This document shows, one piece after another, positions 40,987-48,338 of a stretch of DNA of 64,000 nucleotides. A model generated the notes under the pieces. That model was not told where the DNA came from and did not search any database. It saw only the letters and a program-made list of their open reading frames with translations. Position 1 is the stretch's first letter, and the number at the start of each line of letters is the position of its first letter. The stretch comes from Pseudomonas graminis (GTDB lineage Bacteria > Pseudomonadota > Gammaproteobacteria > Pseudomonadales > Pseudomonadaceae). Both the position numbers and the translations under genes were made by a program. The DNA lies in contig NZ_MDEN01000061.1 of NCBI RefSeq assembly GCF_001705435.1, positions 248,001-312,000 on the forward strand, given 5' to 3'.

Positions 40987-41099
40987 GGAGGCAACCCCAC
41001 CAGCCACACCCCGGCACACAATGTTCCCGCTGTGGCTGCTGCCTTCCGGCTCTGACCAGGTTCACGGGTAATCGTTGCGGGGGGACCGATGGGGTCACC
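40987..41099 (-). ncRNA. ffs: 4.5S signal recognition particle RNA
   Basis: On the minus strand the apical SRP domain is plain: ACCTGGTCAGAGCCGGAAGGC followed by AGCAGCCACAGCGG, with the Ffh-binding GGAAG tetraloop region. The ends pair: GGTGACCCCATC at the 5' end (from 41099) is complementary along its length, with G-U pairs, to GGTGGGGTTGCC near the 3' end. About 113 nucleotides, as for Gammaproteobacterial 4.5S RNA. It binds Ffh to target membrane proteins. Exact ends are estimated from the pairing. Confidence 0.93.
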
Positions 41100-43802: not shown

Positions 43803-44969
43803 TCACTGCACCTGCAGCACCTCATCAGCCTTGCCGCCAGCACCCTGTATGACCAGATGGATGAAATGCAGCTTGGTGATGACCGCCGGAGGCAACACGA
43901 ACGGATAGAAATCCGCCTGACCCATGGCGCGGGACAATTCGTTGAGCATGCCCGCCAGCTCGATCCACGCATTGACGAACGAGAGAAACGCCGGACCGCC
44001 CGGATGCTGAGGGTCGTACAGGGTTTCCAGCGGGAACGGCTGGTAGTCGAGGTCCATGTCACGGGCACTCATGCCCAGGCTCAGGGCGGTGTCGACGGCG
44101 TCCATCATGTGCAGGTAATGCGCCCAGGTTTCGGCCCAGTCTTCCCACGGGTGCATGGTCGCGTAGGCGCTGACAAAGCTCTGCTGCCAGTCGGCCGGCG
44201 CGCCATGCTGGTAGTGATGGTCAAGGGCGTCGGCGTAGCTGGCGCGGTCATCGCCGAACAGGTTGCGGAAACCGTCCTGCCAGTAGGTGTCGGCGATCAG
44301 GCGGTCCCAGTAGTAATGCCCCACTTCATGACGGAAATGCCCGAGTAGCGTGCGGTAGGGTTCGTGCATCTGCACGCGAACCTTCTCACGAATGGCGTCG
44401 TCGGCTTCTTCGACGTTGAGGGTGATCAAGCCACTGGCATGGCCGGTGGTGGGCAGGTTGCCTTCCAGGTCGACGCCGAGGAATTCGAAGGCCAGGCCGC
44501 GTTCTTCGTCGACGCTTTTGGGGACGACGTGAAGGCCGAGGGTGATCAACTGTGCAACCAGCCGGCGCTTGGCGGTCTCGATCTTGCCCCAGCGCTCAGG
44601 GTTTTCCGGCACGGACAGGTCGGGGATGGTCTTGTTGAGGCTGCAAGCGATGCAAAAGTCGCCGGCGTTCAGCGCCGGAAACACCCAATTGCAGGCGGCT
44701 GCCGTGTCGAGGTTGGCGCAACGGCGGTAGAGCCCGGCCTGGGGCTCGTCGGTGAGACGCCAGGTCTGCGCCTCCGGGCCCGGTTCCAGCGCGGCAATCT
44801 TGCTCTGCTCGGGGAGATACCCCAACGCTGCGGAGCAGGCCAGGCACTGGCTGTTGCGGAAAAACACCGACTGTCCGCAATGGCATTGCCAGACTTTGCT
44901 GTTGCGTTTGTTCTCACCGGCGAACGGCGCCGCGATCCGTGTGCTGAGTTGCTCGAAGAACTGGAACAT
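43803..44969 (-). CDS. Putative zinc-dependent peptidase with N-terminal zinc ribbon
   Basis: The 388-residue product has a four-cysteine zinc ribbon at 29-45 (CHCG, CLAC) and further cysteine pairs, then a metallopeptidase-like domain with HEVGHYYWDRL (H214, E215, H218). This combination marks a family of uncharacterised bacterial proteins annotated as putative zinc-binding metallopeptidases. No signal peptide is present, so it is cytoplasmic. AGGA lies eight bases before the ATG at 44969. It stands alone beside a repeat-rich region. Confidence 0.85.
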   Translation of the reverse strand: MFQFFEQLSTRIAAPFAGENKRNSKVWQCHCGQSVFFRNSQCLACSAALGYLPEQSKIAALEPGPEAQTWRLTDEPQAGLYRRCANLDTAAACNWVFPALNAGDFCIACSLNKTIPDLSVPENPERWGKIETAKRRLVAQLITLGLHVVPKSVDEERGLAFEFLGVDLEGNLPTTGHASGLITLNVEEADDAIREKVRVQMHEPYRTLLGHFRHEVGHYYWDRLIADTYWQDGFRNLFGDDRASYADALDHHYQHGAPADWQQSFVSAYATMHPWEDWAETWAHYLHMMDAVDTALSLGMSARDMDLDYQPFPLETLYDPQHPGGPAFLSFVNAWIELAGMLNELSRAMGQADFYPFVLPPAVITKLHFIHLVIQGAGGKADEVLQVQ

Positions 44970-45038
44970 GGCGATATCCTGATGGGGCTGCAAGCACTAG
45001 ATCGTCAAGGGTGGCGGGGGTTCCGTGGGATCTGTGCT

Positions 45039-45310
45039 TACTCTAGGTCCCGCCTAACGGCGGGACTGTTTCGCCTTCGGCGAGTTACTTGGAAAAGCAC
45101 CCCAAGTAACCAAGGGTGCCTGCTCCTGGTTTGGCCCTTCGTTCCTCAGGGTTCCCTCACTCCGACGACGCTCCGTGGGCCCGCGCCGAACGGACATCCA
45201 TGTCCTGACGGCGCTCTCGCGGCATCCATGCCGCTCGGCCCACTCCGCGTCGTCTGCGTTCGGCCTGCACCCAAGTCGCGATTGGCGGTGTCTGGGCTGG
45301 CTGTGTATGA
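45039..45310 (-). repeat. Long interspersed element, left arm of inverted repeat
   Basis: Runs from near CGGGACTGTTTCGCCTTCGG to past CCTGCACCCAAGTCGCG. It contains short internal palindromes GGACATCCATGTCC and GCGGCATCCATGCCGC. The right arm at 45655-45925 matches it in reverse over most of its length (for example CGAACGGACATCCATGTCCT and AAGTAACCAAGGG). Confidence 0.8.
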
Positions 45311-45386
45311 AGATCAAGATCAAGATCAAGTGCAGATCAAAGGCTTCCCGGCTGAAGCCGGTCCTACGGGTGCGCGTTGTTTCTGC

Positions 45387-45501
45387 TGATCGTTGATCGC
45401 TCCCACGCTCCGCGTGGTAACGCCACCTCGGACGCTCCGCGTCCCTGCATGACGCGGAGCGTCTTGGGATGCATGCCCACGCGGAGCGTGGGAACGATCA
45501 G
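45387..45501. repeat. Central palindrome with GCGGAGCGT units
   Basis: GATCGCTCCCACGCTCCGCGTGG at the left and CCACGCGGAGCGTGGGAACGATC at the right pair across about 70 bases, which contain a second inner inverted pair (GACGCTCCGCGTC, GACGCGGAGCGTC). The whole unit could fold into one long hairpin. Confidence 0.8.
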
Positions 45502-45654
45502 TTGCCGAACTGAGAAACTGATGGTGACTGAACTGCCCCCTTCCCGGCTAAAGCCGGTCCCACTAACGGCAGCGCGTGCATTCTGCAAGAGTCGCGGCAG
45601 ACCTCGACCGTAGGACCGGCTTTAGCCGGGAAGCCCTTGATCTGCTTTGAAAGC

Positions 45655-45925
45655 GCTTTTGATCTTCCTGCACAAAAAGCCCAAACACCGCAGAACGCGA
45701 CTTGGGTGCAGGCTGAACGCAGGTCTCGCGCAGTGGGCCGAGCCGCAGGGATGCGGCGAGAGCGCCGTCAGGACATGGATGTCCGTTCGGCGCGGGCCCA
45801 CGGAGCGAGACCGGAGTGAAGGAACCCGACGAAGTCGGGCCCAACCAAGAGCACAAGCCCTTGGTTACTTGGGGCTTTATCAAGTAACTCGCCGAAGGCG
45901 AAACAGTCTGCCCCCAGGCAGACGC
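45655..45925 (+). repeat. Long interspersed element, right arm of inverted repeat
   Basis: Inverted partner of 45039-45310, ending in CGCCGAAGGCGAAACAGTCTGC about 15 bases before the ligA stop codon. In the frame 45647-45931 it encodes ESAVRTWMSVRRGPTER, and the left arm encodes the same peptide on the other strand. Confidence 0.8.
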
Positions 45926-45938
45926 TTTTGATCTTGAT

Positions 45939-48338
<2,400 letters not shown>

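Follow-up and report, generated by a model that had tools for sequence, protein, structure and literature searches.

The large inverted repeat beside ligA in Pseudomonas graminis consists of two copies of a dispersed element of about 280 bp facing outwards, and each arm is a structured element in its own right that carries two CsrA/RsmA-type hairpins, both points having gone unseen in the preliminary description of this DNA. We hold it to be slightly more probable than its negation that transcripts of this dispersed element would present paired RsmA-family sites at the ends of genes.

The window analysed is a stretch of 64,000 nt from contig NZ_MDEN01000061.1. Two arms in opposite orientation had been described there, enclosing three REP units and a palindrome and ending close to the ligA stop codon, and each part of this layout was recovered (Table 1). 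The arms share an ungapped inverted match of 169 nt (45149-45317 against 45659-45827; 86% complementary) with two more blocks of 38 nt outside it, and about 10-15 bases separate the end of the right arm from the ligA stop. The two hairpins in the 3' part of the right copy were recognised in different ways, the one at 45855..45879 being absent from the output of the terminator scan of 44950-46000. The palindrome belongs to a dispersed repeat family of its own, with 83 match rows in the genome when both strands and halves are counted, and its CACGC-GGA-GCGTG hairpins place GGA in loops there too. Rfam matches to microRNAs and Streptomyces sRNAs on the palindromes were far below cut-off and were taken as chance. 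Elsewhere in the window, a bacterial small SRP RNA was found at 40995-41091 on the minus strand (75.4 bits).

Table 1. Features of the inverted repeat and its neighbours, in window coordinates (element and palindrome limits are approximate; R1, model built from the cores of this genome; RF01731, Rfam family TwoAYGGAY).
Feature	Position	Strand	Remarks
Next gene, same strand as ligA	43803..44993	-	Marker for recognising the empty site
Left copy of element	45043..45322	-	RNA strand is minus; L052:2344-2623:-
Left copy, conserved three-way-junction core	45153..45265	-	R1 134.6 bits; RF01731 37.5 bits at 45177-45241
Left copy, hairpin 2 GGACATGGATGTCC	45192..45205	-	Loop AUGGAU
Left copy, hairpin 1 GCGGCATGGATGCCGC	45219..45234	-	Loop AUGGAU
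REP unit adjoining left copy	45344..45367	-	
Central palindrome	45391..45504	none	Separate dispersed repeat family
Second REP unit	45540..45563	-	
REP unit adjoining right copy	45610..45633	+	
Right copy of element	45654..45928	+	RNA strand is plus; L052:2955-3229:+
Right copy, conserved three-way-junction core	45711..45823	+	R1 136.3 bits; RF01731 32.8 bits at 45735-45799
Right copy, hairpin 1 GCCGCAGGGATGCGGC	45742..45757	+	Loop AGGGAU
Right copy, hairpin 2 GGACATGGATGTCC	45771..45784	+	Loop AUGGAU
Terminator-like hairpin AAGCCC...GGGCTT, then TTA	45855..45879	+	Overlaps alternative helix; read from sequence
Terminator-like 3' end hairpin GTCTGCC...GGCAGAC	45906..45923	+	Terminator scan
ligA	45939..48320	-	Stop faces 3' end of right copy

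The arms are neither single-copy nor absent from relatives, and the outcome that would have spoken against the preliminary description is therefore not the one observed. A search of the 5.96-Mb genome with one arm returned 49 matches, 44 of which extended over at least 217 of 266 bases and five of which were fragments. BLAST over 51 stretches fetched around core matches gave 88 places, 65 of them at least 245 bp long, and the genome-wide count that had been proposed as a check thus stands at no fewer than 65 near-full copies, a lower bound as BLAST covered these 51 stretches. Nine assembly contig ends lie in or beside copies (L032, L043, L044, L057, L058, L060, L065, L070 and L074), and the repeat thus interrupts the assembly, so that more copies may exist than were counted. 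A typical copy has a REP and a short TTTTGATCTGC-like linker on its 5' side, then GCGACTTGGGTGCAGGC and the three-way junction; three more hairpins follow, the middle one being terminator-like and in overlap with an alternative helix. The association with REPs had been part of the original proposal and extends well beyond the window, a REP (up to 4 substitutions) being found at most 100 bp 5' of 60 of the 65 copies, in the same orientation in 47 cases and reversed in 13. An extra base just before hairpin 2 (TTGC in place of the usual TCA) is common to copies at two separate places, L046:4893-5170 and L077:2384-2661.

The peptide encoded by both arms had been called spurious, and so it appears here: variability of alignment columns by codon phase was 0.124, 0.104 and 0.098, which is no codon rhythm, and indels of 1-2 nt among the element copies disrupt the frame. 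A coding role was rejected on these two grounds. Stop-free runs of at least 85 codons are common in the element, occurring on the minus strand of 54/65 copies and on the plus strand of 36/65.

Among the roles that had been put forward for the array, a structured RNA has the strongest evidence, from the predicted fold and from covariation. Structure prediction, also suggested at the outset, gave a conserved three-way junction as the core, with two hairpins bearing CA-N-GGA-N-G loops 28 nt apart, and the right arm (45650-45925) folds beyond chance (z -6.09; 0/200 shuffles reach it). The Rfam model RF01731 matches both arms on opposite strands over its core positions 45-113, each time below the cut-off of 43 bits; this genome has 63 matches at E up to 1, seven of them above cut-off, and none of 14 control genomes has a match. 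The loops are nearly invariant. Loop 1 reads CATGGATG in 57 copies, CAGGGATG in 6, and CACGGATG and CATGGACG in 1 each, and loop 2 reads CATGGATG in 63, and CAGGGATG and CATAGATG in 1 each, with GGA kept in 65/65 and 64/65 copies, respectively; since these copies were recovered by whole-arm BLAST and not by their loops, the conservation is not circular. The stems, on the other hand, switch in step, from CGGC..GCCG to CCGC..GCGG, from GGA..TCC to CGC..GCG, and as a block from GGTCTCGC..GCGAGACC to GACGACGC..GCGTCGTC.

For 30 distinct cores from this genome, pairing was retained in 99.4% of cells, changes on both sides occurred in 13 of the 36 pairs (11.0 after shuffling; 1/500 shuffles reach it), and the covariation score was.331 against.113 shuffled (0/500). 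Four of the five covariation measures exceeded nearly all shuffles, and the fifth, further pair types, did no better than chance (25 against 24.0 shuffled, reached by 146/500). A cross-genome alignment was then limited to 49 of 95 matches by leaving out same-place antisense matches, near-duplicates, some further copies within the family and everything found beyond it. In these 49 cores, which come from 35 family genomes other than this one, 28/36 pairs change on both sides (20.0 shuffled, 0/500) and the covariation score rises to.481, against.176 shuffled and at most.105 for slid structures; two helices pair in only 85.4% of cells. GGA is present in both loops of 48/49 cores, the starts of the two motifs being 28 nt apart in 45 and 27 nt in 3 of these 48. 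Column information is 1.79 bits in the loops, 1.10 where columns pair and 1.24 in the remaining unpaired columns, and 10 of the 17 invariant columns lie within the two loops. There are 99 G·T pairs against 20 A·C mismatches across genomes, and 49 against 8 in the core from this genome, which argues that the strand with GGA is the folded one; this strand also folds better in 64/65 copies, and prediction of the structure on the given strand tilts all of these strand counts in its favour.

Core matches to R1 were found in 38 of the 59 genus genomes sampled and in 89 of 148 family genomes from 14 of 19 genera, this genome included in both counts; high copy numbers are understated in these scans, which scored at most 64 (genus) and 25 (family) candidates per genome. 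Further out, matches occurred in 14 of 115 genomes of the order, four of them from the family of this genome, and in 18 of 274 genomes of the class, two of them from this family. Many of the distant matches have quite different, often longer stems, yet keep two CA-N-GGA-N-G loops, a conservation that is partly circular because the search model contains the loops; 3 of 10 distant loci reach the RF01731 cut-off. Hosts by pattern scan, among the matches listed, include P. kilonensis, P. brassicacearum, P. fragi, P. viridiflava and P. putida ASAD. In six loci from other families of the order and class (L124, L125, L126, L131, L138 and L141), two-loop cores are set within long, near-perfect outer stems; most of the six share a TTCACGGCG-like segment, and as a group they resemble a sister family of repeats. 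Two genomes of one other family hold closely spaced, alternating GGA hairpins, seven in L134 (about 1460-1640, minus) and three in L140 (about 1501-1600), which recall a CsrB-like array; Rfam returned no match on either at E up to 0.01. Carriage of the element as plasmid or phage cargo was rejected: among 72,556 plasmid records, a 4.9-Mb Aeromonas record alone gave a match, weak and partial (76.6% over 30% of the query), a stretch with P. putida copies gave 2 weak matches to plasmid records (10-12% of the query), and 50,697 phage records gave no match.

The arrangement seen beside ligA is the usual one, as neighbouring copies in this genome are outward-facing in 20 of 22 cases, and the same order was found in 15/15 pairs in the close relative G020, 6/6 in G028, 2/4 in G066 and 16/21 at other loci. 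Among 71 elements examined, the gene on the 3' side of the element is convergent in 44/66 cases, and in 24 of the 44 its stop codon lies 21-66 bp from the element, compared with no bias of gene direction on the 5' side (17 to 17), these neighbour-gene calls resting on a simple codon score and not on annotation. The 3' part of ligA has a match in all 40 genus genomes, and 30 of the 40 loci were fetched for comparison. The pair is present in 2/30, namely in this genome and in G020, where 945-963 bp separate ligA from the neighbour gene; in 21 other loci the same neighbour stands beside ligA with a gap of 35-284 bp and no element, and in the remaining 7 the neighbour was not found. This distribution indicates either that the lineage leading to this genome and G020 acquired the pair or that it was lost repeatedly, acquisition being the simpler account. 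In two of the 21 loci (L314 and L321), a palindrome like the central one lies alone beside ligA.

The explanation that we favour would operate as follows. Transcripts would cross the element, either because transcription of a neighbouring gene runs on into it or because they start at an unseen promoter, and the RNA (minus strand for the left copy, plus strand for the right) would fold into the three-way junction holding the two CA-N-GGA-N-G hairpins, so that both loops could be presented to one dimer of the RsmA/CsrA family. The hairpins of the 3' part, close to where the convergent gene stops, would terminate such transcripts, and the elements would have spread next to REPs. Transcription, protein binding, termination, Rsm titration or control at gene ends, and the means of spread are all parts of this scheme that we infer. 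The sequence and size of the loops, and their spacing of 28 nt, agree with reported preferences of CsrA/RsmA: SELEX gave CsrA the consensus RUACARGGAUGU, with loops mostly of six bases and, in most hairpins, stems of four or fewer pairs, and a CsrA dimer can span a distance of 10-63 nt between sites, best at more than 18 nt (PMC7652899). Some stems of the element are longer than those typical of the selected hairpins. When single-stranded DNA hairpins were assayed, those with ATGGA and AGGGA were bound effectively by RsmE (PMC9928087), and these are the two commonest loop types among the element copies. On the basis of its motifs, TwoAYGGAY has itself been suggested to bind CsrA (PMC4333381).

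Transcription is the weakest step of the RsmA-site explanation. A search of 44950-46000 for sigma-70-like promoters found 0 (0.1 expected). The GacA box has the pattern TGTAAG-N6-CTTACA, and with up to 2 mismatches allowed it was found in or at most 200 bp upstream of 0/65 copies. The element is thus not built like the Gac-controlled Rsm RNAs, and read-through from neighbouring genes is assumed for the same reasons. A single read-through RNA across an inverted pair would contain both a sense and an antisense copy, and the two could pair with each other. This genome has four CsrA-family matches, and one such gene, at C49:99416-99571, has two paired copies (C49:96007- and 97060+) at a distance of about 2.3 kb, possibly by chance. 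The presence of CsrA proved uninformative as a discriminator, being found in 43/44 chosen genomes with the element and in 19/20 chosen genomes without it.

Mobilisation by REP-associated transposases had been among the suggestions of the preliminary description. The element might indeed be a purely selfish DNA repeat with no role as RNA, in which a RAYT-like or other transposase would recognise the hairpins in single-stranded form and the GGA loops would be its recognition letters. We consider this possible, if rather unlikely. The dispersed copies, their presence or absence at ligA, the adjacency to REPs in 60/65 copies and the outward pairing would all be expected of such a repeat, and a strand-biased excess of G·T can arise in single-stranded DNA too. 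There is also a described precedent in two transposase ORFs whose inverted ends consist of degenerate REPs and unrelated stem-loops, with hundreds of REP/stem-loop structures in P. putida and P. fluorescens (PMC3733652). Against it, the loops match the letters, loop size and spacing preferred by a known RNA-binding protein, and other families show the same two-loop design on stems that are unrelated, these having been found with a search model that contained the loops. Furthermore, in the 10 flanking ORFs scanned (of 69) at P. putida-group loci, no transposase family was found, two of them matching nothing. The compensatory changes could also be ascribed to hairpin-templated repair or exchange between copies in place of selection on RNA, as entire stem halves swap as blocks (GGTCTCGC/GCGAGACC against GACGACGC/GCGTCGTC); this we regard as very improbable, as the loops and some junction letters stay fixed while the stems change, 28/36 pairs show covariation over 35 genomes, in many pair types, and mixed outer-stem halves occur in 2/65 copies, which indicates that exchange tends to break the pairing.

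A two-way end of transcription between convergent genes, in which the terminator hairpins serve to block read-through in antisense and no importance attaches to the GGA loops, would account well for the placement of the element, with 44/66 convergent genes on the 3' side, 24 of them with a stop 21-66 bp away, and an even split (17 to 17) on the 5' side. A perfect stem of at least 5 pairs followed by TTT in 52/65 copies and the tail-to-tail bias of intergenic repeats in P. fluorescens (PMC2718517) point the same way. Such a role leaves the two nearly invariant GGA loops and the three-way junction unexplained, the terminator scan of 44950-46000 gave 2 sites with 1.1 expected by chance, and tail-to-tail placement may merely be the least harmful site; as a full account it appears quite improbable. 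Stalling of replication forks by a DNA cruciform, another proposal of the preliminary description, is suggested by the long inverted arms with their nested palindromes and is the hardest to credit, given that many of the fetched stretches hold a single copy and that a cruciform has no need of GGA loops.

Going further than paired RsmA-family sites at gene ends, the element may be a self-spreading repeat of Gammaproteobacteria, and above all of this family, whose cargo is a dual RsmA/CsrA-binding RNA, its dozens of copies at gene ends acting as a distributed sponge, a proposal that we put forward as speculative and on balance doubtful. Were it true, read-through transcription across the genome and the copy number of a repeat would set the free level of a global regulator. 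Provided that Rsm proteins bind the loops and that the copies are expressed as RNA, the 65 copies with two sites each would supply up to about 130 sites in this genome, models of the Gac/Rsm network would need to include the repeat family, and the orphan family TwoAYGGAY would gain a setting and a function. In P. putida, the RIP-seq targets of all three Rsm proteins include intergenic sequences beside ISPpu8 copies and a "long palindromic region downstream PP_3547", which the authors left open (PMC7937890). An outward-facing pair is such a palindrome; the intergenic targets may be copies of the element, which might then explain the long palindromic region reported in that data set. A link through ISPpu8 gained no support from 8 loci with PF01609 transposase matches in two P. 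putida-group genomes, whose fetched flanks held no core match, and stays a possible lead. A literature search of limited coverage returned no recognisable description of a dispersed repeat with RsmA/CsrA sites.

Compared with known systems, the core resembles TwoAYGGAY in having two hairpins with AYGGAY- or ANGGA-type loops within a closing stem, and the taxa of that family already include gamma-Proteobacteria (PMC2864571, PMC4333381). In contrast to it, the core here belongs to an element of about 280 bp with further hairpins, and a dispersed repeat of many copies with inverted pairs beside REPs does not figure in the portions of these two sources that describe the family. The element shares with the Rsm/Csr sponge RNAs (RsmX/Y/Z, CsrB/C) several GGA hairpin loops on one RNA at a spacing that one CsrA dimer can bridge, but it has two such sites per copy and dozens of dispersed copies, and it differs from them in lacking a GacA box and in that no promoter was found. 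Two P. fluorescens repeats, R200 (320 bp, 47 copies in SBW25) and R178 (101 bp, internal 11-bp inverted repeats, 18/28/9 copies), resemble it in size, copy number and tail-to-tail placement when compared by description only (Silby 2009, PMC2718517), whereas the relevant part of that report proposes no RNA-binding function for them. With REPs, REPINs and BIMEs the likeness is one of position, as the element adjoins and interleaves with GTAG-type REPs, three of which form an array in the window, and outward-facing pairs lie around them. Unlike a REP of 20-40 bp, each arm is a structured element of about 280 bp with a three-way junction and not a short palindrome, and the element is not simply a REP array; it may be related to the REP/stem-loop structures, with which it was compared by description only (PMC3733652).
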